A stretch of DNA of 64,000 bases from a virus. The translations under genes were made by a program, and so were the position numbers. How positions within the stretch are numbered: position 1 is the stretch's first letter; each line of letters begins with the position of its first letter. The stretch spans positions 1-64,000 of the IMG/VR virus record IMGVR_UViG_3300031787_000083; one strand, written 5' to 3'. Below the pieces are notes generated by a model. That model worked only from the letters and a program-made list of their open reading frames with translations, did no database searches and was not told where the DNA came from. Positions 6,552-63,021 of this stretch are shown piece after piece.

Positions 6552-6758
6552 TTATTTCTTCAGACCATACTTGATCCACTTGTACCAGATACGTTCATGG
6601 ATAAAGTATTGTATAGGTTTGTATATAAGTTCAGCCACCCCAAAGGTAGCCCCTATCTTAATGGATCCGCTAATCCCCCACATAAGCAAGAAGCCTATCA
6701 AGGTGCTGACAATCCTGTAACTTATAGTTTTTGCAACATGTCGTTTGACTAATGGCAT
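6552..6758 (-). CDS. DUF2061-family membrane protein
   Basis: A 68-residue product from the ATG at 6758. An in-frame TTG at 6770 lies inside the promoter -7 element and is rejected as start. The sequence RHVAKTISYRIVSTLIGFLL and later ELIYKPIQYFIHERIWYKW match the DUF2061 pattern (KT.SyR...t.....fl, then E...K...Y.lHEriW). There are two TM segments with a conserved HER motif between membrane and C-terminus. It is a separate transcription unit with its own promoter (6768-6799) and terminator. From memory, DUF2061 proteins can occur with sulfate-activation genes, and the promoter is the same as that of the sulfation operon, so a link is possible but unproven. Confidence 0.8.
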   Translation of the reverse strand: MPLVKRHVAKTISYRIVSTLIGFLLMWGISGSIKIGATFGVAELIYKPIQYFIHERIWYKWIKYGLKK

Positions 6759-6767
6759 AATATTGGG

Positions 6768-6799
6768 CAAAGGTATGTAAAAAGATTGATATAACCAAA
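6768..6799 (-). promoter_or_regulatory. Bacteroidota-type promoter for DUF2061 gene
   Basis: On the minus strand TTTG (6796-6799), a 20-nt spacer and TACCTTTG (6768-6775) give an exact fit to the Bacteroidota consensus TTTG/TAnnTTTG. Transcription should begin around 6761-6764, a few bases before the ATG at 6758, so the mRNA would be almost leaderless. Confidence 0.75.
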
Positions 6800-6808
6800 T
6801 CTTTTTTT

Positions 6809-7177
6809 CTAGTAGGGTTGGTAGGACTTTTCCTCTATAAACTCAGAACCATACTTCATATTAATTTCTTTCTTAATACGTGCTCGCTTGTCATTCAATA
6901 AGTAAACACTCCTGGCTAGCTGGACAAAGTGGTTATCAAATACCTTGTTTCTCTCACAATCTCTGAGTCTATCCTCTACATCCCAGAGCTTTTTGTTCAC
7001 CCAGAGTAGCTCATCTGTCAAAGAATCATGTACTATCTCTGGAGGAATCACTCCAGTGAGGTAGGTTCTCTCCTTGAATACGTTTGTAAGCTTGTCTTTA
7101 TCTTGTATGTTCAAAGCTTTGATAGATAGGATGGTCCACTTGTCTACCACTTCTCCTATAGAAACTTCTATTTGCAT
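6809..7177 (-). CDS. DUF6165-like protein
   Basis: A 122-residue soluble protein. It opens MQIEVSIGEVVDKWTILSIK and continues KLTNVFKERTYL, which fits the DUF6165 pattern as I know it (conserved VSIGEiVDKlTIL.iK, then KL.Nv..E...L). A predominantly helical, charged remainder (LWDVEDRLRDCERNK) follows. The function of the family is unknown to me; such genes often sit beside glycosyltransferases, as here. It is transcribed from a promoter that faces away from the large plus-strand glycosyltransferase gene. Confidence 0.65.
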   Translation of the reverse strand: MQIEVSIGEVVDKWTILSIKALNIQDKDKLTNVFKERTYLTGVIPPEIVHDSLTDELLWVNKKLWDVEDRLRDCERNKVFDNHFVQLARSVYLLNDKRARIKKEINMKYGSEFIEEKSYQPY

Positions 7178-7185
7178 AAAAAATT

Positions 7186-7217
7186 ATTGAATATTCCCCA
7201 CAAATATAGTAATTTTG
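7186..7217 (+). promoter_or_regulatory. Promoter for the plus-strand glycosyltransferase gene
   Basis: On the plus strand ATTG (7186-7189), a 20-nt spacer and TAATTTTG (7210-7217), fitting the Bacteroidota consensus at three of four and all four fixed positions respectively. Transcription would start around 7221-7224, giving a leader of about 12-15 nt before the ATG at 7236. It decides between the ATG at 7231 (wrong frame) and the one at 7236. Confidence 0.65.
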
Positions 7218-7232
7218 TTGTAAATAATCAAT
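7201..7232 (-). promoter_or_regulatory. Promoter for the DUF6165 gene (divergent pair)
   Basis: On the minus strand ATTG (7229-7232), a 20-nt spacer and TATATTTG (7201-7208). The -7 element fits TAnnTTTG exactly and the -33 element at three of four bases. The start would be near 7194-7197, about 20 nt before the ATG at 7177. It is interleaved with the plus-strand promoter at 7186-7217. Confidence 0.65.
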
Positions 7233-7235
7233 GCT

Positions 7236-10200
7236 ATGCCCAACAGTTACACATATTTTAAGCAAGAGGTGAAGGAGTGGTTCAGGGATAATGTTCCTGC
7301 TAACACAAAAGTGTTAGACGTAGGTCCTGGACAGGGTACATATGGTAAGCTTTTATTTGAACTTGGGTATGCAATAGATGCTGTTGAGGTGTGGGATCCA
7401 TACATTAGTGAGTATAAACTGTGGGAGTATTATGGTAATGTACATATTGCTGATATACGTGAGTTTGATTGGTCTGAGTATGAGTTCATCATCCTAGGTG
7501 ATGTGCTAGAACACCTAACAGCTGAAGAAGGACAGAAGCTCATCACTGATATTGCCATGGCTAGGAAGCAATGTTTGGTTGCTATTCCCTATATGATGGA
7601 GCAAGATGGTGAGGAGTATGGTAATACATATGAGACCCACCTGCAAGCAGACCTTACAAAGGAGGTGATGGCAGAGCGTTATCCTACACTAGACTTGCTC
7701 TATGCCAATGATTACTATGGATATTATGTAAGTAAGAAGATAGCAGACAAAGCATTTGTACTCTATGCCACAGAAGCTTATTATGATATTGTGACAGCCT
7801 GTGTTAAGTCACTCACTACATTCAGTCAGTATCCAGTGTTTGTATACATGCTTAACTCTGACAAGAAGGTGCCCAGGGCTACAACTATCAGGTGGAACTG
7901 TGATATAGATCCAATAGAATACAATACCAAAGAACAGTTCTACATCAATAGAACAGATGATAGAGTATATAACATCCTCATACAGCGTCCACTGATTGTT
8001 ATAGACTGTCTGAAGTATGCTGACACTGTAATGTATGTAGACAGCGATAGTGTTGCTACACCTTTTGTAGATAAAGTGTTTAACTACCCTGTCTCTGAGT
8101 ATCCCCTATTTACATCTAGCATCTATGACCAGATGTTCCTAAATGGAAAAGGAGACCTTGAGAAACCTATTTGTGATCTATTAGATATACAGAGAGGCAG
8201 GTATATACAAACAGGATACTTCCTAGCCAATAGAGATTGTCTACCATTCTTACAAGAGTGGGCTAGTTTATGTATTGATGCAAGAGTGATGGGTGATTTC
8301 AAACTCTATGCTCCATTCCATGAAGAGACATTAGCTAATGCAACACTTTGGAAGAATGATTATAACAAATCTCTACCACTCATCTATACTAATGCTAGCT
8401 TAGATGTATTAGAGAACATAGATAAATATGAGTTTGGTAAAGAGCATTGGGAATGGTTTAAACTACCTGATAGTAAGCATGAGTTGTTCTTCTACCATGG
8501 AGAGAAGAGACCAGATGTAATGTACAAGATGATTAGTAGATTGAAAGGTAATAAGAGAGTGTTATTTCTAGCACCTCACCTATCTACAGGTGGTATGCCT
8601 GCGTTCCTATTAAAGAGAATACAGGAGATAAAAGACCATGTAGAGATATATGTAGTTGAGTATCAATGCCACAGCTTAGACTTTGTTGTACAACGTAATG
8701 CTATCAAAGAGATTGTAGGATCTAACTTCACTACACTGTATGAGAACAAGATGGAGCTGTTTGATATTATTGATAGCTGGAAGCCAGACATCATTCATCT
8801 AGATGAACCTGCTGAAAGATATAACAGAGAGATGATTACTAAGTTGTATGATGTAAACAGATCATACAAGATTGTAGAGACATTCCATGATGTAGCATTC
8901 AAGCCTGAAGAAAAGATGTTTCAGTCAGAAGCATATGCATTCTGTACACCATACCACCTCAATAAGTTTACAAACTTACAGGGTTATAGAAAGGTGATTG
9001 AGTTTCCTTTAGAAAACAAGAAACCAACTAACACACGTAAGATAATAGCTAAGAACAAGGTAGGGTTTGCTCCATTCAGGACTAGTGTTGTAAATGTAGG
9101 ACTGTGGACTCCAGGTAAAAATCAAGCAGAGGGAATTGAAATAGCTAAGAAGTATCCTCATATGGATTTCTATTTTGTAGGTAATCAAGCTGGTAACTTC
9201 AAAGATTACTGGGAACCTTTAATGAAAGACTTACCAAAGAATGTATATGTTCTAGGAGAGAAGAGCAATGTAGAAGACTATTTAACAGCTGCAGATATAT
9301 TCATGTTCAACAGCACATGGGAATGTAATCCTCTTGTACTTAGAGAAGCAATCAGTTATGCACTACCTGTTGTAGCTAGAAACCTACCACAGTATGAAGA
9401 TATGTTTACTAAGTATCTTCTACCTATAGATAGTGACTTTGATGAAATATACAATCAGTATAGAAATGGTATTGTTCAGTATGACATACCAGACATTACA
9501 TTTAGACAAGACAACATAGACTTCTACAATCATGTAGATTCTATCTCTCTACAGCCACAAGATGTAACCATCACACAGCATTACATAGTTAATCCATTTC
9601 TTGAGATAACAGGTGTGAGTGATAGTAACTTCAAAATAGAATACTATGATGAGCAGGGTGTATGTCACTACAGTAGTGTAATCAAAACCAACCAGTGGGT
9701 AAAGTTAAACAGAAGTTATTACACTAAATGGAGAAACAAGATATGGCAAGATGGCAATCTTATACACGACTACACACTAGACTATACAGACAAGACTGTG
9801 TTCATCTACTTTGATAGTGAAAGTCTTGGTGATACAATTGCATGGATGCCATACTGTTTAGAGTTTAAGAAGAAGCACAACTGTCATGTTGTTGTAAGTA
9901 CATACAAAAACTTCTTGTTTGAGAAGGCCTATCCAGAGCTTGAGTTTGTTGCACCTGGAACACCTGTGAATGCTTATGGAGAATACATAATAGGTTGGAG
10001 ATATAACACAGACCAAGAGCCTGAGTTATGTAACACCATCCCTCTACAGAAAGCAGCTACTAATATACTTGGACTAGAATACAAAGAGATAAGACCTAGA
10101 ATTGCTTATACACCTGTACAGTTTGAAGACAGGACTAAGTATGTAACTATTGCTACGAATAGTACAACAGGATGTAAGTTTTGGACTAGAGAAGGGTGGC

Positions 10201-10628
10201 AAGAAGTGATTAACTATCTAGTGAGTCAAGGATACAAAGTGTACAATGTATCTAAGGAAAGAAATCCATTTGATAACTGTGTACAGATAGAAGACACATC
10301 AATGGATAACACCATCAATATGATTTGGAACAGTAAGTTCTTTATAGGACTTAGTTCAGGATTAAGCTGGTTAGCTTGGGCTTTAGGTAAACAAGTGGTG
10401 ATGATTTCTAACTTCACCAAAGCAGACCATGAGTTTCAATCTAACTGTATTAGAATTACAGATGAGAGCGTGTGTCATGGATGTTGGAACAATAAGAACT
10501 TCAAGTTTGATAGAGGAGACTGGAACTGGTGCCCTATCTGGAAGGGTTATGACAAACAGTTTGAATGCCATAACACCATCACAGCAGATAAAGTTATAGC
10601 TTCCCTTCAGCCTTTAATTGTTCTCTAA
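7236..10628 (+). CDS. Four-domain methyltransferase-glycosyltransferase fusion with TibC/Aah-type heptosyltransferase domain
   Basis: 1,130 residues in four parts. Residues 1-170 are a SAM methyltransferase (NTKVLDVGPGQGTYGK motif I, then FIILGDVLEHL). Residues about 175-420 are a GT8-like glycosyltransferase with a DxD in YVDSDSVAT. Residues about 425-770 are a GT4-like domain (FLAPHLSTGGMPAF near its start, and WECNPLVLREA, the E-x7-E motif). Residues about 790-1130 match bacterial autotransporter heptosyltransferases (TibC/Aah), with FDSESLGDTIAWMPY and a four-cysteine finger at Cys1080, 1083, 1099 and 1111. In TibC such cysteines hold an iron ion and the enzyme puts heptose on serines of repeat proteins. 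It is the only plus-strand gene and its last 35 nt overlap the convergent nucleotidyltransferase gene. Substrate and sugar are inferred; phage fibre repeats are the obvious candidate. Confidence 0.85.
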   Translation: MPNSYTYFKQEVKEWFRDNVPANTKVLDVGPGQGTYGKLLFELGYAIDAVEVWDPYISEYKLWEYYGNVHIADIREFDWSEYEFIILGDVLEHLTAEEGQKLITDIAMARKQCLVAIPYMMEQDGEEYGNTYETHLQADLTKEVMAERYPTLDLLYANDYYGYYVSKKIADKAFVLYATEAYYDIVTACVKSLTTFSQYPVFVYMLNSDKKVPRATTIRWNCDIDPIEYNTKEQFYINRTDDRVYNILIQRPLIVIDCLKYADTVMYVDSDSVATPFVDKVFNYPVSEYPLFTSSIYDQMFLNGKGDLEKPICDLLDIQRGRYIQTGYFLANRDCLPFLQEWASLCIDARVMGDFKLYAPFHEETLANATLWKNDYNKSLPLIYTNASLDVLENIDKYEFGKEHWEWFKLPDSKHELFFYHGEKRPDVMYKMISRLKGNKRVLFLAPHLSTGGMPAFLLKRIQEIKDHVEIYVVEYQCHSLDFVVQRNAIKEIVGSNFTTLYENKMELFDIIDSWKPDIIHLDEPAERYNREMITKLYDVNRSYKIVETFHDVAFKPEEKMFQSEAYAFCTPYHLNKFTNLQGYRKVIEFPLENKKPTNTRKIIAKNKVGFAPFRTSVVNVGLWTPGKNQAEGIEIAKKYPHMDFYFVGNQAGNFKDYWEPLMKDLPKNVYVLGEKSNVEDYLTAADIFMFNSTWECNPLVLREAISYALPVVARNLPQYEDMFTKYLLPIDSDFDEIYNQYRNGIVQYDIPDITFRQDNIDFYNHVDSISLQPQDVTITQHYIVNPFLEITGVSDSNFKIEYYDEQGVCHYSSVIKTNQWVKLNRSYYTKWRNKIWQDGNLIHDYTLDYTDKTVFIYFDSESLGDTIAWMPYCLEFKKKHNCHVVVSTYKNFLFEKAYPELEFVAPGTPVNAYGEYIIGWRYNTDQEPELCNTIPLQKAATNILGLEYKEIRPRIAYTPVQFEDRTKYVTIATNSTTGCKFWTREGWQEVINYLVSQGYKVYNVSKERNPFDNCVQIEDTSMDNTINMIWNSKFFIGLSSGLSWLAWALGKQVVMISNFTKADHEFQSNCIRITDESVCHGCWNNKNFKFDRGDWNWCPIWKGYDKQFECHNTITADKVIASLQPLIVL

Positions 10629-10980
10629 TTTGTGTAGCAGATATATCATGTATATCTTGAGGTGGTACGTGTTCTACAACATCATAACCAATACCTCTAC
10701 CAATATTAACAGATTCAATATCAGGTATAATCATGAGTCTAACTCTTCCTTCCTCAATGAGATCCATTAATTCTTCTGTTAGATTCATCATAACTTGCCA
10801 TGGAGACCAAGGATTCTTCTCATCAGGAGTAACATCTCTTACACAGAGGAGAACATTCTTACCTTCATTTAATTTCTGATCAATCAACCATCTGTGACCA
10901 GGATGCCATGGTTGCCATCTTCCTATGAACATAGCATAACCACTTCCATTACCATTACCTTTTGCTAGAATATTCTGCAT
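10594..10980 (-). CDS. HxGH-motif nucleotidyltransferase
   Basis: A 128-residue Rossmann-type nucleotidyltransferase. FIGRWQPWHPGHRWLI (His26-x-x-His29) is the nucleotide-binding HxGH motif, and DISATQIRE at about residues 112-120 is the second ATP-phosphate motif (ISsT.iR). This superfamily includes NMN adenylyltransferases, cytidylyltransferases, ADP-heptose synthases and ATP sulfurylases. Its place directly after an APS kinase and a sulfotransferase makes an ATP-sulfurylase-like step (sulfate to APS) attractive. Activation of a sugar phosphate for the neighbouring heptosyltransferase domain is the alternative. It is shorter than a normal ATP sulfurylase. Its start overlaps the APS kinase gene by 16 nt and its end overlaps the convergent plus-strand gene by 35 nt. 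Confidence 0.8.
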   Translation of the reverse strand: MQNILAKGNGNGSGYAMFIGRWQPWHPGHRWLIDQKLNEGKNVLLCVRDVTPDEKNPWSPWQVMMNLTEELMDLIEEGRVRLMIIPDIESVNIGRGIGYDVVEHVPPQDIHDISATQIREQLKAEGKL

Positions 10981-11402
10981 ACATGTTTGATTTTATCTAC
11001 ACTATCTTCAATAGAAGTGTTAGATGTATTAATAATTAAATCTACATCATCTTTCTGTGGTAGCTCAAAGTCTGCCACTTTAAATTGATCTCTACCTCTA
11101 TCTTCTTCATATGTGAGATAGATCCATTTAACATCTCTGGTTAGACTGCTTAGATACTCTCTAGCTTCTTCATAAGGATACACTAGTGATAACACTATGT
11201 TATAGTTTCTTGCTTTATTCAAATAGTAAGCAATATCACTAGCTCTGTTTAAGTTTTTAATCCTACCTTCTTTACTGTAGTCTTTGTTCTTAAACATATC
11301 TCTTAGTTCATCACCATCTATGTGGTGGAATCCCTCTGCTATAAACTTTTTAGCAAGAGTTGTCTTGCCTGATGCAGGCTGTCCAAATAATACTATTATC
11401 AT
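10965..11402 (-). CDS. cysC: Adenylylsulfate (APS) kinase-like P-loop kinase
   Basis: A 145-residue P-loop kinase. The Walker A is GQPASGKTT (residues 7-15). It is followed by HIDGDELRDMFKNKDYSKEG and RIKNLNRASDIAYYL, which match the APS kinase pattern (lDGD.vR..l..d..fs...R..n..R...vA..l). SLVYPYEEAREYL corresponds to the conserved SPyr..R segment. The reaction would be APS + ATP to PAPS + ADP, supplying the sulfate donor to the sulfotransferase encoded immediately upstream. It is shorter than typical cellular CysC (about 200 residues) and the Walker A differs from the usual GLSGSGKST, so a divergent phage form, or a kinase for another small substrate, cannot be excluded. Confidence 0.75.
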   Translation of the reverse strand: MIIVLFGQPASGKTTLAKKFIAEGFHHIDGDELRDMFKNKDYSKEGRIKNLNRASDIAYYLNKARNYNIVLSLVYPYEEAREYLSSLTRDVKWIYLTYEEDRGRDQFKVADFELPQKDDVDLIINTSNTSIEDSVDKIKHVCRIF

Positions 11403-12217
11403 TTTGTATATCTAAATTGTTGAAAGAACCATTGGTAATTATCCCATATCCAGTTTGTAACGTCCTTACCTAATAAGGCTTTTGCTCTAGAAGGAACAGG
11501 TTCTAATCTAGTACGAATAGTGTGGTCACCAAAGCTACCATACACCTCATCATCTTCTTTAGTAACTTGTTCTATATTATCCCAATCATGTTGGTAATAA
11601 GGAATGCCTAGGTATTGATATATCCTTTGCATCTCTGTATCTGGATATAGACACAAGTCTTCAAACTTAACAAACAATACATGTTTGTCTATCCCTAGCC
11701 TAAACATCTCTTGTAATCTTTCTATAGCTAGACCAACAGGTTGACTCTGTGCCCAGATGTCTATACGTTTAGGAACTGTTGTTCCTTGCATCTGTGCCCA
11801 ATTAAGAATAGCATTAGCCTTATCAGGATTCTTTCTGTAGTTGTTCTCCATAGAAGCAAAGACATCACGTAGGTCTCTCACCATACATATAATCTTTGGC
11901 TCTGGGTGGATAAAGTTTAGGAAGTCATAATGTATTCCCCATCCTCTAGATTTGTCTACAACATATTTCTTATCTGTAATAGCATTGTAATAAGCAATCA
12001 TTCCTTCTTTACAGAATGCTTGGAATGCAGCTTTCATTACTTGTGGATCTTGAGCTTGGAACTCAGGACTGTCTGTATAGTTTCCTCTAGCAGCAAACAC
12101 TAACTCAAGTACACCACTAGTTGGTGTAGCATAGATGTCTGGATTTTGTGCTAATATGTTTTGTAACAATGTTGAACCTGCTCTTGGTAAAGAGCTTTGA
12201 TAGAATATATTCTCCAT
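11399..12217 (-). CDS. PAPS-dependent sulfotransferase
   Basis: A 272-residue protein that should transfer sulfate from PAPS to an acceptor hydroxyl. The 5'-phosphosulfate-binding loop is SLPRAGSTLLQN (residues 9-20). The 3'-phosphate-binding motif is ICMVRDLRDVFAS (Arg114 and Ser122 in the usual spacing). FVKFEDLCLYPDTEMQRIYQYLG near residue 190 is the family's FE.L...P......i..fLg segment. Length is normal for the family. The gene overlaps the APS kinase gene by 4 nt, so donor synthesis and transfer are encoded together. The acceptor is not visible from sequence: a glycan built by the neighbouring glycosyltransferases or tyrosine on a virion protein are both possible. Phage-encoded sulfotransferases beside PAPS synthesis are unusual. 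Confidence 0.85.
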   Translation of the reverse strand: MENIFYQSSLPRAGSTLLQNILAQNPDIYATPTSGVLELVFAARGNYTDSPEFQAQDPQVMKAAFQAFCKEGMIAYYNAITDKKYVVDKSRGWGIHYDFLNFIHPEPKIICMVRDLRDVFASMENNYRKNPDKANAILNWAQMQGTTVPKRIDIWAQSQPVGLAIERLQEMFRLGIDKHVLFVKFEDLCLYPDTEMQRIYQYLGIPYYQHDWDNIEQVTKEDDEVYGSFGDHTIRTRLEPVPSRAKALLGKDVTNWIWDNYQWFFQQFRYTK

Positions 12218-12218
12218 A

Positions 12219-13094
12219 TTAAGATTTTAAAGATGCTATGATTTGATCTACATTAAATATTTCTTTCTCATTGTTATATGGAAACTCTAATAGGTTCCCT
12301 GATATATCAAACTTCTGCAAGTATGCATTGCGTAACTCAGGCTTCTTAGTGAATGGATTACATACAATGTTATCATGTACATCATATCCAAACACCTCAG
12401 GCTTATTACACACCCATAGCACTGTAGAAGGTTTATTCATAGCAGCAGCTGCATGATGACCAAAGCTATCCATCAACAATCTCTTACTACTAAGTTCTAT
12501 AAGAACAGCTAGTGCTCTGAAGTTATCTGTAACAGGAGTGGTGAAGTCATAACCAATCTGATCTTCTCTTCTTATGTGTACAATGTTATAATCATTTTTA
12601 AATTCATGTATAACATTCTCCACTACATAACTAGGAATGTCTCTAGCCCATGAGTATTTCAACTCTTGTCCTGGAGCACCACCATTTGTTTGTAACAATA
12701 AAATAGGTCTGTCAGATGTAAACTTCTGACCAAAGAACTTACGTTCTCTATCTGTAAGATAGAGCTTAGGAATAACACTCTCAGGTGTAGGAACACCAAA
12801 CATTCTTGTCCATGTATGACTTAAGTGTTCATTCTGCATAAGATGTTCTGTCTGTAGATATGGATCATGTGCAAACACTTTGAACTCTTTACCCTCTATA
12901 AAATCTTCATAGAAGTATTGTGTCATGCCAAAAGAAAATGAGCGATACACAAAGGGGTTGTTTATAAACACCTCTGGGTAACCGCTCATTACAATTAATT
13001 GACTATCAGGATATTGTTTGTGAATTGCTTCACAAACAGATGTAGCAAGTATACACTTACCTATACCACCATTGATTTGGAAAATGATATTCAT
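12219..13094 (-). CDS. GT9-like (heptosyltransferase-like) glycosyltransferase
   Basis: A 291-residue protein. The N-terminus MNIIFQINGGIGKCILATSV and AIHKQYPDSQLIVMSG match the first Rossmann fold of GT9 enzymes (G.iGd.il.tp....l...yP...i). The C-terminal half has LLQTNGGAPG, then SSKRLLMDSFGHHAAAAMNK and PSTVLWVCNKPEVFGY, the family's D..g.HlAaa..kp...l. region. GT9 enzymes normally transfer heptose from ADP-heptose. It is the first gene of the operon with sulfotransferase, APS kinase and nucleotidyltransferase, behind a consensus promoter at 13111-13142. The acceptor is unknown. Confidence 0.75.
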   Translation of the reverse strand: MNIIFQINGGIGKCILATSVCEAIHKQYPDSQLIVMSGYPEVFINNPFVYRSFSFGMTQYFYEDFIEGKEFKVFAHDPYLQTEHLMQNEHLSHTWTRMFGVPTPESVIPKLYLTDRERKFFGQKFTSDRPILLLQTNGGAPGQELKYSWARDIPSYVVENVIHEFKNDYNIVHIRREDQIGYDFTTPVTDNFRALAVLIELSSKRLLMDSFGHHAAAAMNKPSTVLWVCNKPEVFGYDVHDNIVCNPFTKKPELRNAYLQKFDISGNLLEFPYNNEKEIFNVDQIIASLKS

Positions 13095-13110
13095 AATTTA
13101 GCTTTACAAG

Positions 13111-13142
13111 CAAAGGTATACATTGCTTATAATAAAACCAAA
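13111..13142 (-). promoter_or_regulatory. Bacteroidota-type promoter of the glycosylation-sulfation operon
   Basis: On the minus strand TTTG (13139-13142), 20-nt spacer, TACCTTTG (13111-13118). Both elements and the spacing are identical to the promoter of the DUF2061 gene at 6768-6799. Transcription would start near 13104-13107, about 10 nt before the ATG at 13094. Confidence 0.75.
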
Positions 13143-13152
13143 TTATTTAACA

Positions 13153-13500
13153 TTATTCTTCAACAGCTGTAGTTGTGGTTGTTGTGGTTGTAGGACCAGC
13201 CAAAACAGCCTCAGCAAGATCTACAAAAGCTGTAGTATCTAAGTCTGCATACTGTACTCTAAAACTTTCTGCACCTTGTTGACTTGGTAGCCAATCAGAG
13301 AAAAGATCATAGAATGTGTTGATAGCATGATACTGCTTAGGGCCTGTATAACCTTCTGGTTTGTTTGCCCATACATCATCTACGCAAGCGTCTACTAGAG
13401 CTTGGAAGTCAGAAACATTTGCCTGTACGTTTTGGGTATCAGTGATTACCTGCACTGTACCAAAGCCAAAGATGTGAAGTGTGTTAAATGGATTTGCCAT
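13153..13500 (-). CDS. Small protein with poly-threonine tail, probable virion or fibre accessory
   Basis: A 115-residue protein: a folded part of about 100 residues (MANPFNTLHIFGFGTVQVIT ... YADLDTTAFVDLAEAVLAGP) and a C-terminal run of eight threonines followed by AVEE. The same poly-Thr linker type occurs in the proteins at 48161-53407, 56969-57508 and 59971-61134, all within the structural region, so this is probably also a virion component. It follows the giant fibre gene by 20 nt and may be a fibre partner or chaperone. The family is not recognised. Confidence 0.65.
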   Translation of the reverse strand: MANPFNTLHIFGFGTVQVITDTQNVQANVSDFQALVDACVDDVWANKPEGYTGPKQYHAINTFYDLFSDWLPSQQGAESFRVQYADLDTTAFVDLAEAVLAGPTTTTTTTTAVEE

Positions 13501-13520
13501 TGTTTATTGTTTTTGTAAAG

Positions 13521-16500
13521 TTAAATTAAATTATTGTTTTTCAAAATATTTTCTATTATTTTTATTCTATCCTTCAGACTATCATTCTCAGCTTTAAGTT
13601 CTTTGAATGCGTTTACATAAGAAGCATAGATGGCATCTTTTTCAAATTGTAGTATTGGGCTACCACCTTCTCCAACTATCACCTCAAGACCATTTTCATC
13701 CACTCTTGAAACACTGTTGACTTCTACAACACAAGCCATTGCTTGTTGTACCTCTTGAGCTATGAAGCCATACTTTCTATGACATGACACATCCCCATTC
13801 CAACAATAGCTTACAGGTCTTAGTTTGATAATATCATCTAAACCAAAGCATGTATCTTGAATAGTATTCTTTCTTCTGCAATCAGAGATACCACCACCCC
13901 ACTGACATAAGTTGTTTACAAATGTGAAGTTGTTAGCTACACCAAATAAACAAGAACCAATCATGTGTGCGTTGGTAGCACTATTTGTAGTATTACATAA
14001 TCCTGCAAGAACAGATGACCAACATGAATTAGCTACGTTATTTAATCCTCCACCAACAAATGTATAATTTGAAGTACAAGCTCTATTCCCTTCACCTCCT
14101 ACTATAGCTGAATATGTAGTTGATGCAATATTATTATATCCACCACCTACGAATGAGCTATTACCTGACGCGGTATTAGTTTGACCTCCTACTATAGATG
14201 ATAAATAACCTGATGCTGAATTAGTAAGACCTCCTCCAAGTGTAGTCCAAGTGTTTGATGCTGCATTTCCTGACCCTCCTCCTACGAACGAACGAGTTCC
14301 TGAAGCTACGTTACTTGAACCTCCTGCTACAGTTGAATATGCTCCTGAAGCTGTATTAGATTGCCCAGCTCCTACAAACCCTCTATTACCACTGGCTGTA
14401 TTGCTATAACCTCCTGATACAGTTGATATAGAAAAACTAGCTGAGTTTAAAAACCCTCCACCAACGGTTGCCCATGAGCCTGTAGCACCATTACTTCTTC
14501 CTCCTGCTATTGTTGATTCACAACCTGTTGCATTATTGTTATATCCACCACTTGCTGTAGATCTAATTCCACAAGCTCTTACAGAAGCACCTCCTCCAAC
14601 AAAAGATCCACTTCCTAATGCTAGATTTGACGCACCACCAACTACAGCGGCATAACCACCACTTGCTGTATTATTGTTTCCACTACCTACAAATGAGCCA
14701 TAGCCACTTGCTGAGGCAGCTCTACCTCCTGCTATAGTTGAACAAGCCCCTCCTGCTGTATTACTAAACCCACCACCAACTGTTGCATGGGAATTAGTTG
14801 CCGAGTTATTACACCCACCACCAACTCTTGAAGCAACCCCTGATGCTGTATTTGATTGACCTGCACCAATAGATGCTTTATTACCACTTGCAGTGTTTAA
14901 TGCTCCACCTGCTATTGTTGAATCATATGTACCACTAACTGTATTCGTGTAACCACCACCAATAGTACCTGTTATTGAAGAAGCAGTGTTACTTAAACCA
15001 CCTGATATTGTTGAGTTACCTGCTAATGCTCTGTTATAACATCCACCCCCTACTGTTGTCCAAGATGAAGCAGCACAGTTGAATTGACCTCCCCCTAAAA
15101 ACGCATAATTGCCACAGTTAATATTCATCCATCCACCAACAAGAACACCTGCTGTTCCCATTGTGTAAATAACAGATGGAGCAGTTGAGAAGTATGAACT
15201 ACCCATAACACCACCTGAAGTATTGTTTCCAATACCACCACCTGCAAAACCACCCGTAGCATTTGCTCTATTACATATACCTCCTGCAACTGTTGATTGA
15301 GTACCACTTGCACAGTTTCTATAACCTCCTGAAACTGTTCCATTGTATCCTGAAGATGCATTGACATATCCACCTCCTACTGCTGAATAGTTTCCACTAG
15401 CAGTGTTAGAATAACCTCCTGCAATTGTTGGATATTGGCTTGATGCTACGTTTCCAAATCCACCACCTACTGTTGATTGTGTTCCACAAGATTGATTTGA
15501 ACAACCTCCGCCTACAAAAGCTCCTGTAACAGATGCTGTATTACTAATACCTCCTCCAACTGCTGTAAAATATCCACTTGCTGTGTTTGATTGACCACCT
15601 GCTACAACAGAACGTACGGCTGTTGCATTATTGCCAACACCACCACCTACAGTTGTTCCATTGGATGATGATGTATTTCCATTACCACCACCAATCGTAG
15701 CCCAACATCCTGAAGCATTATTTCCTCTACCGCCTCCAACAGTTGAACTTTCGCCTGAAGCTGTTACATCATATCCACCACCAATAAAAGACCATGAGCC
15801 TGAAGCTAAGTTTGAATATCCTCCACTAACAGTTGATGTATCACCACAAGCTACGTTTACAACACCACCTGCAACAACACTATGAGATGCTGATGCTAAG
15901 TTTTGTCTACCACCAACCATAGCCATATAACCACTAGCTGAGTTATTACATCCACCTAATACAGCTGAAAACTGACCTGAAGCAGTGTTTTGCATACCTG
16001 CTCCTACAAATGAAGTGTTTCCTGATGCTGCATTGAATCTTCCTCCTGATACAGTAGAGAAATATCCGCTCGTTGTATTACATAAACCACCACCAATTGA
16101 TGTGTTATTACTTGATGCAACGCTACATTGTCCACCACTTACCACTGAATATGTCCCTGATGCTCTATTCTGAAATCCTCCTCCTATTGTTGAATAGATA
16201 CCTGCATTTACTCTTGTAGGAGCCACTGTAAATTCACAAGCAGCAAGACTCCAAGTTCCCCCTGATGTATTATTACCTACACCACCTACTACCACAGCAC
16301 CAAATGCTAAACAATCAGAAGTTGAATTACATATTGAATTACAACTACCACCACCAATAAAACCATGATTTGCAAATACAAAGTTTCCTTGACCGCCAAC
16401 AGCTGATGAGTGTAAACTACATACATGATTTACGCTTCCTGCGCCTATGAAAGAACGATTGCCACAAGCTACTACGTTAAATGTTCCATTGACAATAGTT

Positions 16501-19500
16501 GCCATATATGAAGAAGCTGTGCCTTGCCTTCCGCCACCTATAAAAGATCTATCTCCTGAAGCTATATTTCCTGCTGCTCCACTACCTATTACTGTTGCAA
16601 ACCCACCTGATGCAGTATTTCCATTACCACCTAAAACAATAGATGAATAACCACTGGCTGTGTTAAGACATCCTGCACCAACTAGTGAATAAGAGCCTAT
16701 TGAGGAGTTAAATCTTCCTCCTACTACAGAGGCAACGTATCCACTTGCAGTGTTACAATAACCACCTGAAACTGTAGTTCTCCAATTAGTAGCACGATTA
16801 CACAATCCACCACCAACTGTAGAATGTCCACAACCTGATGCTGTATTAACCTCACCTCCACCTATAGTTCCAAATGGAGCTGATGCTGAATTTGTACTAC
16901 CACCACCTATAGAAGAAGCACCTCCTGATGCTGTGTTAGAAAGACCACCTCCAACAAATGTATAAGAATTTGTAGTAGAGTTTGCTCTACCTCCTGCAAT
17001 TGTAGACATATAGCCTGATGCAGTGTTATCATATCCACCTGCAACTGTCGCAGAGTAACTACCTGAAGCTACGTTATTAAAACCACCTCCTACAGTTGCG
17101 TGATATGTTCCACAAGCTCTGTTGCAAACACCACCTGCTACCACATTATTTTCTCCTGAAGCTATATTAGCACGACCACCTAAAACAGCAGAACAAGCTC
17201 CTGACGCTGTATTAGAACAGCCTCCTGCAACTACTGAATGAGAACCTGAAGAAGCGTTTCCATTACCACTAAATACACCTGAGATGCCTCCTGACGCTGT
17301 ATTGAATCCTCCTCCTCCAACAATTGAACGATAAGCTGAAGTTGTATTCCCAATGCCTCCTGCTACAGTTGAAATATAACCTGAAGCTGTATTTGCTCTA
17401 CCCCCTGATATAGCAGAATAATCACCTGATGCTATGTTTGGAGAAGGAGGACGACCACCACCTCCAATAAAAGCATAAAGACCTGAAGCTACGTTCTGAT
17501 AGCCACCTGCTACTACACTCATATAAGCAGAAGCAGTGTTACCTGAACCTCCTCCTATGAACGAATAGTTGCCTGTTGATTTATTTACTTCACCACCTGC
17601 CACTACTGCTGCTTCTCCAAAAGCACAGTTAATTCTGCCCCCTGCTACTGTAGATGAATTTGTACAAGCTATATTATTACATCCACCACCTATTGATGAA
17701 TTAACTCCTGACGCTGCATTATTTATACCACCTGAAATTGTTGAATAGCCACCTGTGGCTGCATTTAATTGACCACCTCCTACAGTAGAGCAGTTTCCTG
17801 ATGATGTGTTAGTAGACCCTCCACCTATAGATGACAATGCACCTGACGCTGTGTTTACATGTCCACCACCCACTACAGACCCATTTGATGTAGATGTATT
17901 TCTACAACCACCACCAATGAAAGACCTAGTTCCTGAAGCAGTGTTTTGATAACCACCTGAAACTGTTGAATAAGTTCCTGAGGAAGTATTATCATATCCA
18001 CCACTCACTGTAGAATATCCTCCTGTAGCATCATTCATTACACCACCTAAAGCTGATGAATATGCAAATGTTGCTGTATTACATCTACCTCCTGCCACAG
18101 TTGTCCAACAACCTGTTGCTCTATTAACTGTACCACCACCTATTGTTGAAGTGTTTCCTGACGCTATGTTTTGATAACCTCCACTAATTGTACTAAACTG
18201 ACCTGTTGCAATATGCCTAAAGCCACCACCAATAAATGAGAAATATCCTGCATCACAAACTGTTGGTGCTACAGAGAAACAACCTCCTGTCCAAGTACCA
18301 CCTGTTGTGTTATGACCTGTTCCACCTACTATAGTAGACCAAGCACCACAAGAAGCTGACGTTGCATTACATATAAAGTTTGATGTACCACCTGCTATAG
18401 TAATACCTGTTCCTGCTATGGCTATACAATTAAATGCACCACCACCAATTAAAGAACAAACTCCTGAATTTGTATTTGCATAACCACCACCTATAAATGA
18501 ATAACAACCATTTGCATAGTTTGATTCACCACCTACAACTGATGCTTGACCTCCATTAGTGCAGTTACCATATCCTCCACCCACAACACTATATATTCCT
18601 GCTGCACCATTCACTCTACCGCCACCTACTGTTGAGCAGTTTCCTGAAGATGTGTTATTACAACCACCTCCTATAGAAGTATTATTTCCTGAAGCAACAT
18701 TCCCATTACCACTACCAATAAAACTTTCTCCACCTGATGTTATATTTAATACACCACCCCCAATGTGAGAGCGAGATGCAGATGCTGTATTGTTTTGACC
18801 ACCCCCAATACCTGCCATATATCCTGAAGTGGTATTAAGATAACCACCTGCTGCTACAGAACCATAGCTTCCACTTGCAGTGTTACCATAACCTCCACCT
18901 ATAAATGGATATTGTGCGCCTGATGCATTATTTGCAGCACCACCTGCTACTGTGGCTCTTAAACCACTTGCAACGTTGCACCACCCACCACCTATTGCGG
19001 AGCAACCACCATAAGAACAGTTCGCTTGTCCTCCTCCTACTGTAGAAAAGGCAATATTTGCAATATTCCCTCTACCACCACCTATGAAAGTATAAGTGCC
19101 TGAAGCTGTATTTTGATAACCTCCTACAACTGATGAATAAGTACTTGAAGCTGTGTTGTCATAACCTGCTCCTACAAAGGAATAATTTGCACTTGATAAA
19201 TTTGATTCACCACTTACAACAGCTGACCTTGTGCCTGATGCATTATTACTTAAACCACCTCCTGTAAAGCTGTATGTACCTGAAGCTGTGTTTGACTGAC
19301 CACCTCCTACAACTGACCTATTTGCTGAAGCTGAATTATTACTACCACCACCTATAAAAGAAGCTGTATTTTGGGTAGTATTAGAAAGACCACCTGCAAT
19401 GGCAGAATATGAACCCACTGAAGCATTAGCTGAACCACTTAAAGAACCACTATATGCTCCTGAAGAAGTATTTGTTACACCACATCTTACTGAAGAACAC

Positions 19501-22400
19501 AATCCTGCTCCAAGCACAATAACAGCACTAGAACCAACATTTATACCAGAACTACCTGAGCTACCACTTGTACCTGACGTACCACTGGTGCCAGAAGTTC
19601 CACTTGTTCCTGAGCTACCACTGGTTCCTGTAGTTCCTGAAGAACCACTAGAGCCTGTTGTACCAGAGGTTCCTGTTGTACCAGACGTACCACTTGTAGC
19701 TGATGTACCACTAGAGCCTGAAGTACCTGTGGTACCTGACGTACCACCTGTACCATTGGTTCCACTTGTACCACTTGTTGCTGAAGAGCCAGAACTACCT
19801 GATGTACCTGATGTTCCATTTATACCAGAAGTTCCTGAGGTACCAGCAGTTCCTGAGGTACCACTAATACCACTTGTTCCACTGGTGCCACTAGTTCCTG
19901 AAGAACCAGAGCTTCCTGTGGTTCCAGATGTACCACTTGTACCTCCTGTACCATTAGTACCAGACGTACCACTAGAACCTGCTGTGCCACTTGTGCCAGA
20001 GGTTCCTGTAGTACCAGAGGTTCCTGAACTTCCTGATGTTCCACTAGAACCACTTGTTCCTGTTGTTCCACTTGATCCTGAAGAGCCAGTTGTACCACTA
20101 GTACCACTTGTTCCTCCTGTTCCATCTGTGCCACTGGTTCCACTAGTTCCTGTTGTACCACTAGTGCCAGATGTACCATTTACTCCTGAAGAGCCTGATG
20201 TGCCACTTGTACCAGAAGAACCAGAAGAACCTGAAGAACCTTCACCTCCTGTAGCACCATCCAAGTTAACTTGCCATGAGCTATATGTACCAGACCCTGT
20301 AAGTCTAAATACAGTGAAGCTTAATGAGCCAGTTGCTGGGTTATAAGAAGTCACCTCAGCCTCTACGTGATTGTTTGCATCATAAGCAACAATAATAGAC
20401 TGACCAACTGTATATGCTAATCCTGTTCCCACTGTAATGGTTCCTGAAGAACCTACAGCTCCTAATGTATATGTTGATGTTGATGTGGTGGCAAATCTGT
20501 CACCACTCAACCCTGAAGTTCCTGATGTCCCACTAGTACCAGAGGTTCCAGAAGTTCCTCTTGTTCCACTAGTTCCACTAGTTCCACTAGTGCCCCCAGT
20601 ACCATCTGTAGCTGATGTACCAGAACTTCCACTTGTACCTGAAGTTCCTGACGTTCCAGAGGTACCACTTGTTCCTGTGGTACCTGATGTACCAGCACTA
20701 CCACTTGTACCACTAGATCCACTAGTACCAGTTGTACCTGATGATCCTGAAGACCCTGTAGTACCAGAAGTACCTGATGTGCCTCCTGTTCCATCAGTCC
20801 CACTAGTCCCACTCGTACCACTAGTTCCAGCTGTGCCTGAAGTCCCACTTGTTCCACCTGTACCATCAGTACCTGAAGTTCCAGTTGTACCTGATGTACC
20901 TGCTGTTCCTGAGCTTCCACTAGAGCCACTTGACCCACTTGTACCAGTTGTACCAGAGGTTCCCCCTGTACCATCAGTACCAGAGGTGCCTGATGTTCCA
21001 GTAGTACCTGCTGTACCACTTGATCCTGATGTTCCAGAACTGCCACTAGTACCTGTAGTACCTGATGTGCCACTGGTACCTGCTGTACCTGAAGTACCTG
21101 TTGTACCAGCAGTTCCTGAGCTGCCTGATGTGCCAGAGCTGCCTGAAGTTCCTGTGGTTCCACTTGTACCAGATGTGCCATCTGTACCTGAAGTTCCACT
21201 AGTTCCAGTTGTTCCACTGGAACCTGAGCTTCCAGAAGTACCTGTTGTACCACTGGTTCCAGCTGTACCACTGGTTCCTGATGTGCCATCAGTACCAGAC
21301 GTGCCTGAAGTTCCACCTGTACCATCTGTTCCACTCGTACCTGAAGTACCAGAGGTTCCAGAAGTGCCAGAGGTTCCTGACGTACCATCAATACCTGAAG
21401 TACCAGAGGTACCACCTGTAGCTGTGAAGTTTGCAATAGTACCATCACCTCGTATGTATTGAGCTGCTGATCCTGTTGCTACAACGTTTATAGTTCCTGA
21501 AGAAGTTATAGGGGGTGTTGTAATGCTGAATGCTGGAGGCATGGCAAGTTGTACACTTGTCACTGTTCCTACAGACCAACTTCTGTTTGCTGATAGGTCT
21601 TGTGTTAAACCATTGATGCTCAACGTTCTAGTTGTAGGCACTGGTGTATATCCTAATGCAGATACAATATCTCCTTGTGTTACAGGAGTGGCAGACGTAA
21701 CAAGACCTTTGCCATTCACAGCCACCTTTAAAAAGGTGTTGCTTCCATAGACATTAGGGTTGACAGTCTGTAATGTAAGAGTTGTAGGAGAACCTGTTGT
21801 ACCAGTTCCTGTTACATCACCAACAATGATGATGACACCAGAAGGAACAGCAATGTTTACAGGAGTAACATTAGTTACAAGTCCTTTTGCATTCACTGTT
21901 ATTCTTGGAACCTGTGTAGTGGAACCATAAGTTCCTGGGTTAGCATTGACACTAGCCAATGTAAGAACAGCAGACCCTGGGCCACTAGCTGTACCATCTC
22001 CTGTTAGTGCTGTGATATAAGGACCTGATGGTTGGTATGATGTATTATCTAAGCTACCATCCCCCTTAACAAAATCTGAAGAGGTACCACCTGTTGTTAT
22101 TAATGCTGCAGACTCAATTGAATCTGAAATCTTGAATGTATAGCCATTGCTAAGAATAACTGTGTTCTGGGTTAAGCTACCGCCTAGCTTCACTGGTTGA
22201 CCAGGAGCTGACTGTATAATTCCATTTTGGAATATATACCCAAGACCAGCATCTCCAAACTTAGCGTCTATTTTTTGTAGAGCAGTTTGAAGACTATCAT
22301 TAGTATTGATGCCAGTGTATATTAAATTCTCACCTTCATAGAATACGCAGGTGGCATTTAGTATGACTGGACATGGTTCTGCTGAGCAAGATACATCCAT
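13521..22400 (-). CDS. Giant tail fibre/adhesin: anchor, collagen-like blocks, YadA-head-like repeats, S74 chaperone
   Basis: 2,959 residues, presumably the receptor-binding fibre. Residues about 1-50 hold an anchor motif (YTGINTNDSLQTALQKIDAK) shared with proteins at 57532 and 57806. Residues 50-326 are beta-rich repeats of the T.G..T....V.VNAKGLVT type. Residues about 327-629 and 716-952 are Gly-X-Y blocks (GTS, GSS, GTT, GTD), separated by an 85-residue folded domain (TYTLGAVGSSGTITVGTGLA). Residues about 965-2830 hold about 120 repeats of 15 residues (S.vgGG..NtASG.y), like trimeric autotransporter heads. The last 120 residues are a peptidase S74 chaperone with Ser2839 and Lys2844 (SDCRRK), LRPVSYCW and GFIAQEVQ, ending in a coiled coil. 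It should trimerise and cleave itself near Ser2839. The Ser/Thr-rich repeats lie next to the glycosylation cassette. Confidence 0.9.
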   Translation of the reverse strand: MDVSCSAEPCPVILNATCVFYEGENLIYTGINTNDSLQTALQKIDAKFGDAGLGYIFQNGIIQSAPGQPVKLGGSLTQNTVILSNGYTFKISDSIESAALITTGGTSSDFVKGDGSLDNTSYQPSGPYITALTGDGTASGPGSAVLTLASVNANPGTYGSTTQVPRITVNAKGLVTNVTPVNIAVPSGVIIIVGDVTGTGTTGSPTTLTLQTVNPNVYGSNTFLKVAVNGKGLVTSATPVTQGDIVSALGYTPVPTTRTLSINGLTQDLSANRSWSVGTVTSVQLAMPPAFSITTPPITSSGTINVVATGSAAQYIRGDGTIANFTATGGTSGTSGIDGTSGTSGTSGTSGTSGTSGTDGTGGTSGTSGTDGTSGTSGTAGTSGTTGTSGSSGSSGTTGTSGTSGTDGTSGTSGTTGTSGSSGTSGSSGTAGTTGTSGTAGTSGTSGTTGTSGSSGTSGSSGTAGTTGTSGTSGTDGTGGTSGTTGTSGSSGSSGSSGTAGTSGTTGTSGTDGTGGTSGTSGTAGTSGTSGTSGTDGTGGTSGTSGTTGSSGSSGTTGTSGSSGTSGSAGTSGTTGTSGTSGTSGTSGTSGSSGTSATDGTGGTSGTSGTSGTRGTSGTSGTSGTSGTSGLSGDRFATTSTSTYTLGAVGSSGTITVGTGLAYTVGQSIIVAYDANNHVEAEVTSYNPATGSLSFTVFRLTGSGTYSSWQVNLDGATGGEGSSGSSGSSGTSGTSGSSGVNGTSGTSGTTGTSGTSGTDGTGGTSGTSGTTGSSGSSGTTGTSGSSGTSGSSGTSGTTGTSGTSGTAGSSGTSGTNGTGGTSGTSGTTGSSGSSGTSGTSGTSGISGTSGTAGTSGTSGINGTSGTSGSSGSSATSGTSGTNGTGGTSGTTGTSGSSGTSATSGTSGTTGTSGTTGSSGSSGTTGTSGSSGTSGTSGTSGTSGTSGSSGSSGINVGSSAVIVLGAGLCSSVRCGVTNTSSGAYSGSLSGSANASVGSYSAIAGGLSNTTQNTASFIGGGSNNSASANRSVVGGGQSNTASGTYSFTGGGLSNNASGTRSAVVSGESNLSSANYSFVGAGYDNTASSTYSSVVGGYQNTASGTYTFIGGGRGNIANIAFSTVGGGQANCSYGGCSAIGGGWCNVASGLRATVAGGAANNASGAQYPFIGGGYGNTASGSYGSVAAGGYLNTTSGYMAGIGGGQNNTASASRSHIGGGVLNITSGGESFIGSGNGNVASGNNTSIGGGCNNTSSGNCSTVGGGRVNGAAGIYSVVGGGYGNCTNGGQASVVGGESNYANGCYSFIGGGYANTNSGVCSLIGGGAFNCIAIAGTGITIAGGTSNFICNATSASCGAWSTIVGGTGHNTTGGTWTGGCFSVAPTVCDAGYFSFIGGGFRHIATGQFSTISGGYQNIASGNTSTIGGGTVNRATGCWTTVAGGRCNTATFAYSSALGGVMNDATGGYSTVSGGYDNTSSGTYSTVSGGYQNTASGTRSFIGGGCRNTSTSNGSVVGGGHVNTASGALSSIGGGSTNTSSGNCSTVGGGQLNAATGGYSTISGGINNAASGVNSSIGGGCNNIACTNSSTVAGGRINCAFGEAAVVAGGEVNKSTGNYSFIGGGSGNTASAYMSVVAGGYQNVASGLYAFIGGGGRPPSPNIASGDYSAISGGRANTASGYISTVAGGIGNTTSAYRSIVGGGGFNTASGGISGVFSGNGNASSGSHSVVAGGCSNTASGACSAVLGGRANIASGENNVVAGGVCNRACGTYHATVGGGFNNVASGSYSATVAGGYDNTASGYMSTIAGGRANSTTNSYTFVGGGLSNTASGGASSIGGGSTNSASAPFGTIGGGEVNTASGCGHSTVGGGLCNRATNWRTTVSGGYCNTASGYVASVVGGRFNSSIGSYSLVGAGCLNTASGYSSIVLGGNGNTASGGFATVIGSGAAGNIASGDRSFIGGGRQGTASSYMATIVNGTFNVVACGNRSFIGAGSVNHVCSLHSSAVGGQGNFVFANHGFIGGGSCNSICNSTSDCLAFGAVVVGGVGNNTSGGTWSLAACEFTVAPTRVNAGIYSTIGGGFQNRASGTYSVVSGGQCSVASSNNTSIGGGLCNTTSGYFSTVSGGRFNAASGNTSFVGAGMQNTASGQFSAVLGGCNNSASGYMAMVGGRQNLASASHSVVAGGVVNVACGDTSTVSGGYSNLASGSWSFIGGGYDVTASGESSTVGGGRGNNASGCWATIGGGNGNTSSSNGTTVGGGVGNNATAVRSVVAGGQSNTASGYFTAVGGGISNTASVTGAFVGGGCSNQSCGTQSTVGGGFGNVASSQYPTIAGGYSNTASGNYSAVGGGYVNASSGYNGTVSGGYRNCASGTQSTVAGGICNRANATGGFAGGGIGNNTSGGVMGSSYFSTAPSVIYTMGTAGVLVGGWMNINCGNYAFLGGGQFNCAASSWTTVGGGCYNRALAGNSTISGGLSNTASSITGTIGGGYTNTVSGTYDSTIAGGALNTASGNKASIGAGQSNTASGVASRVGGGCNNSATNSHATVGGGFSNTAGGACSTIAGGRAASASGYGSFVGSGNNNTASGGYAAVVGGASNLALGSGSFVGGGASVRACGIRSTASGGYNNNATGCESTIAGGRSNGATGSWATVGGGFLNSASFSISTVSGGYSNTASGNRGFVGAGQSNTASGAYSTVAGGSSNVASGTRSFVGGGSGNAASNTWTTLGGGLTNSASGYLSSIVGGQTNTASGNSSFVGGGYNNIASTTYSAIVGGEGNRACTSNYTFVGGGLNNVANSCWSSVLAGLCNTTNSATNAHMIGSCLFGVANNFTFVNNLCQWGGGISDCRRKNTIQDTCFGLDDIIKLRPVSYCWNGDVSCHRKYGFIAQEVQQAMACVVEVNSVSRVDENGLEVIVGEGGSPILQFEKDAIYASYVNAFKELKAENDSLKDRIKIIENILKNNNLI
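13930..19450 (-). repeat. About 120 tandem 45-bp repeats coding YadA-head-like strands
   Basis: Imperfect 45-bp (sometimes 48-bp) tandem units, consensus product S-x-V-G-G-G-x-x-N-T-A-S-G-x-Y. Third-codon positions differ widely between copies, so the array is old rather than recently amplified. Three units carry longer loops (near 18.3, 16.25 and 15.2 kb) with a shared NNTSGG or NTTGG start and an F(S/T)xAP ending. Many units have cysteine at the same two positions (before the Asn and after the ASG). Confidence 0.85.
19545..20250 (-). repeat. Collagen-like Gly-X-Y block 2
   Basis: Nine-base units coding Gly-Thr-Ser, Gly-Ser-Ser, Gly-Thr-Thr and similar triplets in phase for about 235 residues without a break. 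On the plus strand this appears as repeats of the ccacttgtacct type. Confidence 0.85.
20513..21420 (-). repeat. Collagen-like Gly-X-Y block 1
   Basis: About 300 residues of uninterrupted Gly-X-Y triplets, mostly GTS with GSS, GTT, GTA and GTD and occasional GTG-GTS junctions. It is separated from block 2 by a normal globular domain encoded at about 20250-20513. Confidence 0.85.
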
Positions 22401-62895: not shown

Positions 62896-63021
62896 TTCCC
62901 ATCGAAGGGAATGCAGTTAACACTTAGTTAACCCATCCATCTGTGTGAGAAGACTCCCCCACTGGGAGGAGTGGGGGGGAATTCTTCTCTGTATAGTAAT
63001 TCTAACCCTAAGATTAGAATT
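62896..63021 (-). other. Cluster of hairpins between capsid gene and next gene
   Basis: Four inverted repeats in 126 nt: AATTCTAA/TTAGAATT (62998-63005 with 63014-63021, overlapping the capsid stop codon); a GC-rich stem AGAAGA...CCCCCACT with AGTGGGGG...TCTTCT (62948-62988); GTTAAC repeated at 62916-62921 and 62927-62932; and TTCCC/GGGAA (62896-62900 with 62907-62911). No T-run follows any stem on the minus strand. This points to mRNA stabilisation, processing or partial attenuation rather than simple termination. Confidence 0.7.

Follow-up and report, generated by a model that had tools for sequence, protein, structure and literature searches.

Two separable enzyme sets accompany two repeat types of a giant phage fibre, suggesting dedicated fibre-modification modules

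Introduction

On what do the sugar- and sulfate-transferring enzymes encoded beside a giant phage fibre act: on the fibre itself, and then on which part of it, or on something else? The question is raised by a 64,000-nt window, the whole stretch of DNA analysed here, which is part of a 70.8-kb IMG/VR virus contig from a water-borne phage. A sequence-only reading of this window proposed a single virion-decoration cassette, in which a TibC-type glycosyltransferase and a sulfation operon modify a fibre rich in YadA-head-like repeats. Neither the enzyme families nor the glycosylation of phage virions is new. In mycobacteriophages, phage-encoded glycosyltransferases are thought to decorate the phage's own virion, with the capsid as target and through different enzymes; to our knowledge, no sulfotransferase is involved. 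Putative capsid glycosyltransferases are mentioned in PMC11256854, and TibC and AAH use ADP-heptose to attach heptose to repeat autotransporters (PMC4358343).

The fibre locus and its surroundings

The features of the locus are collected in Table 1. The fibre gene is followed on its 3' side, on the same strand, by a 115-aa ORF, the glycosyltransferase GT9b, the sulfotransferase, an APS-kinase-like protein (APSK) and a nucleotidyltransferase (NTase). The 115-aa ORF has a poly-Thr tail and is a possible fibre-assembly protein.

Table 1. Features of the fibre locus (window positions)
Feature	Position	Strand	Remarks
DUF6165 protein, adjoins TibC-like gene	6809..7177	-	found in several relatives
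1,130-aa multidomain protein, TibC-like domain C-terminal	7236..10628	+	convergent to sulfation operon
TibC-like (TIGR04414) catalytic domain	9621..10607	+	equivalents of Asp110, Lys230 and four iron-finger Cys
128-aa HxGH nucleotidyltransferase	10594..10980	-	nearest are NMN adenylyltransferases
APS-kinase-like P-loop kinase	10965..11402	-	P-loop, DGDxxR
PAPS-type sulfotransferase	11399..12217	-	PF13469; 5'-PSB-like PRAGSTLLQ, 3'-PB-like RDLRDVFASM
GT9b, GT9-fold glycosyltransferase	12219..13094	-	adjoins sulfotransferase in nearly all relatives
115-aa ORF between fibre and GT9b	13153..13500	-	kept in most relatives
Giant S74 fibre, 2,959 aa	13521..22400	-	uninterrupted ORF
Peptidase_S74 intramolecular chaperone	13725..13886	-	PF13884; SDCRRK matches Ser-Asp-x-x-x-Lys by eye
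LPBR 15-aa YadA-head-like beta-roll repeats, fibre aa ~961-2830; putative substrate of GT9b and sulfotransferase	13911..19520	-	
Gly-Thr/Ser triplet shaft, fibre aa 330-954; putative TibC-like substrate	19539..21413	-	PF01391, 194 bits

Elsewhere in the window, a 4,055-aa ORF (26824-38991) lies between the fibre and other structural genes, and the major capsid protein (63014-63949) matches at least 598 IMG/VR contigs, the best 80 of them with 97-100% identity. The capsid group comprises extremely abundant phages, in which the capsid is near-constant and the fibre modules are variable. A separate Gly-Thr/Ser triplet ORF is located near the capsid gene in several capsid-selected records, including G006 (42-44 kb).

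From N to C terminus, the fibre consists of a non-repetitive N-terminus, G-X-Y triplets, a 15-aa beta-roll repeat and the S74 chaperone. Its reading frame is open over all 2,959 residues, as the sequence-only reading had stated, and the count of 537 triplet residues matches the estimate of about 540. The triplets form runs at aa 330-596, 600-635, 715-873, 877-900 and 904-954, the shaft being broken at aa 636-714, and the Collagen model PF01391 scores far above its cut-off of 27 bits. Hydroxyl residues dominate both variable positions (X: Thr 137 and Ser 33; Y: Ser 125 and Thr 21; n=179 each). Proline is almost absent from phage triplets (0.4% at Y, pooled), so a fold other than the collagen triple helix is possible.

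The predicted region of about 1,870 residues of YadA-head-like repeats was likewise found, and contains 91 copies of a 15-mer G-G-x-x-N motif, labelled LPBR here (consensus S-T-V-G-G-G-x-x-N-T-A-S-G-x-x). The LbR_Ice_bind model (YadA-head/LbR beta roll) scores 26.8 bits on the window fibre, below its cut-off of 30, and 44.2 bits on the relative L003. A scan of the fibre against NCBIfam returned collagen-like models only, and no strand-loop-strand repeat model. Tyr is frequent at repeat positions 7 and 15. Cys makes up 3% of the beta-roll repeats, which is unusual in a phage fibre. The Peptidase_S74 domain lies at aa 2839-2892 (30.5 bits, cut-off 22).

The encoded enzymes

The proposed position of the fibre beside a TibC-type transferase and a sulfation operon was borne out, with TIGR04414, PF13469 and PF01583 all scoring above their cut-offs. 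The TibC-like domain occupies aa 796-1124 of the multidomain protein (244.7 bits, curated cut-off 200) and aligns with PDB 4rap over 302 residues (5e-47). The catalytic Asp110, the donor-binding Lys230 and the four iron-finger Cys, whose roles in BAHT enzymes are described in PMC4358343, are kept, and are invariant in 12 homologues. The rest of the protein contains a GT4 domain (aa 618-726) and an N-terminus that is weakly methyltransferase-like, and a PDB search with the segment between these two parts returned nothing. In two relatives (G013, G021), an ORF resembling the HldE nucleotidyltransferase, scoring under the curated cut-off, lies near the TibC-like gene, which fits a sugar made locally. 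At least 589 TibC-like relatives were matched in IMG/VR.

The sequence-only reading had treated the glycosyltransferase as one item; the TibC-like gene stands, and a second enzyme, GT9b, had not been told apart from it. GT9b gave no match in a Pfam scan. Its AlphaFold (AF2) model (pLDDT 80.8) has as best Foldseek matches a GT9 protein (3tov), WaaF (1psw), WaaC and TibC, and on this model GT9b is predicted to have the GT9 GT-B fold, with TibC among its best structural matches.

The sulfotransferase scores 73.7 bits with PF13469 (cut-off 27; 3e-20), its PAPS-binding motifs are conserved across 10 homologues, and the best PDB sequence match of its profile is protein-tyrosine sulfotransferase 1 (7e-9). 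The kinase scores 35.6 bits with APS_kinase (PF01583, cut-off 21) and has APS kinases as best PDB matches, while lying below the cut-off of the CysC equivalog model (TIGR00455, 33.9 vs 138.7 bits). The nucleotidyltransferase was considered as an ATP sulfurylase, a name that is unjustified because its nearest homologues are NMN adenylyltransferases (NMNATs); the C-terminal part of its AF2 model is poor. Stenotrophomonas phages contain a fused APS-kinase-like/nucleotidyltransferase gene (L091:3587-4327 and L092:3593-4324) with no sulfotransferase nearby, and one of these genes adjoins an NADAR-type gene, which hints at another role.

TibC-like genes follow the triplets

Two scans for the sulfotransferase gave 83 viral loci, and 50 of these records were searched whole. 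TibC and triplets were both present in 23 of them and both absent in 23 (Fisher 5e-10, truncated records included). Three records cut off at the fibre or cassette were then removed and a single isolated triplet match was scored as absent; on this basis, presence of TibC and of triplets agreed in 47/47. The two traits change in lockstep nine times on the sulfotransferase tree; only three of these changes lie on strongly supported branches, and the tree sign test alone is therefore not significant.

When loci were instead chosen independently by their TibC domain, 80 viral loci were obtained, and 46 of the records were searched whole. Triplets were present in 42; in each of the remaining four, the contig breaks off within 1 kb of TibC. 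The triplet ORF is mostly convergent to the TibC-like gene and within a few kb of it. At one locus (L059, record G036), the two genes adjoin each other, and the sulfotransferase is over 100 kb away. Two further phages, Microcystis phage Mel-JY01 and one of 735 kb, also have TibC beside triplet ORFs, with no sulfotransferase within the stretches read. In Mel-JY01, the open frame with 151 triplets (L088:2-3052) crosses genes annotated on the opposite strand, which makes a misannotation of the triplet protein probable. A huge phage of 636 kb (L090) has TibC, and no triplet-rich ORF was found in its 20-kb flanks. Relatives are few among phage isolates, and most of the phage records surveyed are incomplete.

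Selection on the cassette was avoided in a third survey, in which 31 records were taken by the major capsid protein alone (97-100% identical). Triplets were present in 10/10 TibC-bearing records of this set. Ten TibC-negative records, mostly fragments of 42-79 kb, also had some triplets (two triplet matches each in the two records longer than 85 kb), so the association is weaker there (Fisher p=0.005).

A shared fibre tip was considered as the source of the TibC/triplet link and found unsupported, since the C-termini of 37 TibC-linked triplet ORFs fall into 20 clusters, too varied to account for it.

GT9b and the sulfation genes follow the beta-roll repeats

Almost all 83 sulfotransferase loci have GT9b next to them or close by, and an LPBR fibre lies upstream in 55 of the 61 loci whose upstream sequence spans 3.5 kb or more. 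Among the other six, L061 and L080 have LPBR elsewhere in the record, L019 and L039 are short contigs, and L082 and L084 are real exceptions. The records G047 and G048 keep GT9b and the sulfotransferase and have no LPBR, and LPBR was not seen in the distant sulfotransferase loci L017 and L019. A search of viral contigs with the LPBR segment yielded one locus.

The 71 phage TibC loci with a visible fibre, which come from both scans, allow the same link to be followed among TibC carriers: 31 have sulfotransferase and LPBR together and 38 have neither, so that 69/71 agree. The two disagreements are L110, which is cut at the sulfotransferase, and L061. The accompanying genes are confined to sulfotransferase-positive TibC loci (GT9b 32/33, APSK 31/33 and NTase 27/33, vs 0/38 sulfotransferase-negative loci for each). 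On the TibC tree, sulfotransferase and LPBR change in lockstep 12 times (sign test p=0.016). In the 31 capsid-selected records, LPBR is present in 8/8 with a sulfotransferase vs 2/23 others (p=6e-6), and in the latter two, both cut, the match is at a contig end.

TibC-like genes thus follow triplets with or without the sulfotransferase, and the GT9b set follows LPBR with or without TibC. Co-occurrence in related phages, proposed as a check from the sequence alone, was observed and strongly supports the claim that fibre and modifying enzymes form a linked system, which survives in this form. The single cassette does not: the two enzyme-repeat pairs assort independently of each other, which rules out one joint cassette. 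Nor does the claim that TibC-type enzymes modify just such strand-loop repeats, as TibC action on YadA-like repeats is ruled out by the 38 TibC loci that lack both sulfotransferase and LPBR.

Bacterial TibC relatives

Thirteen bacterial TibC-like genes (L177-L184, L186, L191, L194, L195, L199) have, less than 1.5 kb away, a gene for a small (GTS)n/(GSS)n protein that is secreted or a lipoprotein. These triplet-linked genes are the nearest to the phage ones, and include those of Methylobacter luteus and Methylomicrobium. Several of the small neighbours have a lipobox-like Cys. In the classical TibC clade, triplets were found in 0/45, and a long Ser/Thr/Gly-rich ORF is often next door. On a tree of 122 TibC domains, the classical members are separated from the triplet-linked ones of bacteria and from those of phages; the dividing branch is weakly supported (70), and the classical core of 44 rows has a support of 99. 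In Bradyrhizobium (L224, L232), a classical TibC gene is followed by a giant Ser/Thr/Gly-rich ORF, and a sulfotransferase (~114 bits) is encoded about 9 kb from the TibC gene.

Proposed pathway and alternatives

The specific and separable co-occurrence suggests that the fibre is the substrate of both enzyme sets, and the phage probably encodes two dedicated fibre-modification modules, one in which the TibC-like enzyme serves the triplets and one in which GT9b and the sulfotransferase serve LPBR. In the first module, the TibC-like domain would put a sugar on Ser/Thr of the triplet shaft (O-glycosylation), by homology a heptose from an ADP-sugar; this sugar may be lengthened and capped by the GT4 and possible methyltransferase domains of the same protein. 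In the second, GT9b would add a sugar to the 15-aa beta-roll repeats and the PAPS-dependent sulfotransferase would sulfate the product, the PAPS being supplied by the APS-kinase-like protein, perhaps together with the nucleotidyltransferase. With S74 cleaved off, the beta-roll part would be distal and carry the sulfated sugar. Because most X and Y positions carry a hydroxyl residue and there is hardly any proline, the glycans may stiffen or protect the shaft; the purpose could be a stiffer proline-poor shaft, protease resistance and charge on the distal fibre. Several points count against the two modules. Co-occurrence alone does not equal modification, G047 and G048 keep GT9b and the sulfotransferase without LPBR, and L090 has TibC without a triplet-rich ORF in the flanks searched. 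In addition, a few TibC-negative records have triplets (mostly fragments or very short runs), and the nucleotidyltransferase is NMNAT-like and occurs fused to the kinase in phages without a nearby sulfotransferase.

It is unlikely, though it deserves some weight, that only the TibC pair represents fibre glycosylation, and that the sulfotransferase targets tyrosines, a small molecule or a host glycan. The match to protein-tyrosine sulfotransferase 1 and the Tyr at repeat positions 7 and 15 would suit a tyrosine target, and the sulfotransferase has cyanophage relatives without GT9b or LPBR; against this, GT9b adjoins the sulfotransferase in nearly every relative and the link with LPBR is near-perfect.

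We consider it distinctly improbable that the enzymes modify host surface polysaccharide against superinfection and lie near the fibre through a common host-recognition island. LPS heptosyltransferases do belong to GT9, and pelagimyophages, as far as the parts of PMC7029224 considered here go, offer a precedent: they are glycosyltransferase-rich, have host-recognition clusters of fibres and glycosyltransferases, and have collagen and YadA domains in proteins of the structural region, including fibres. Unlike in the present case, the enzymes there are read as host O-chain modifiers, and those parts of the paper report no enzyme-repeat pairing. However, host-surface modification predicts neither that each enzyme set tracks one shaft repeat nor that fibre tips vary under a constant link, and leaves bacterial TibC genes beside tiny (GTS)n lipoproteins unaccounted for; the family of the TibC domain, moreover, glycosylates proteins (PMC4358343). 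Hitchhiking, with fibre and enzymes moving as one mobile block without functional connection, is very improbable: the genes are adjacent and the whole block travels together in many loci, but the pairs occur separately as well as together and change repeatedly in lockstep on the trees, and unrelated phages and bacteria also have the TibC pair, which in G036 lies far from the sulfotransferase.

Relation to known systems

The phage enzyme resembles TibC and AAH in family score, in the Asp, Lys and iron-finger Cys, and in the proximity of its gene to a Ser/Thr-rich repeat protein. It differs in that the partner is a Gly-Thr/Ser triplet protein (a phage fibre or small lipoprotein), not an autotransporter, and in that the phage and triplet-linked bacterial domains group apart, across a weakly supported branch, and frequently share a polypeptide with GT4 and other domains. 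The pairing of a collagen-like G-X-Y protein with a glycosyltransferase of its own has parallels in SgtA/BclA3 of Clostridioides difficile (PMC7157674) and in the glycosylated BclA of the Bacillus exosporium. By contrast, those proteins are on the spore surface, and the phage triplets are nearly proline-free. SgtA presumably belongs to an enzyme family different from the TibC-like one. The cyanophages S-SKS1, S-SRM01 and S-SCSM1 encode a sulfotransferase of the same family (27-29% identity), but without GT9b, APSK or an LPBR fibre beside it. In the open-access literature searched, no report was found that pairs TibC-type enzymes with Gly-Thr/Ser triplet proteins or links a phage sulfotransferase module to a fibre repeat.

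Significance

Whether the two modules are part of a modular repeat-enzyme code, in which one TibC subfamily would be reserved for (Gly-Thr/Ser-Ser)n proteins, phage and bacterial, and in some phages a GT9b-sulfotransferase-PAPS module for beta-rolls, is in our view an evenly balanced proposition. The findings provide a substrate prediction for the widespread TibC-like subfamily and for phage sulfotransferases, and cultured carriers of TibC-like genes exist in Microcystis phage Mel-JY01 and Methylobacter luteus. They suggest that many aquatic phages modify the fibres that they make, a point relevant to adsorption, stability and recognition.
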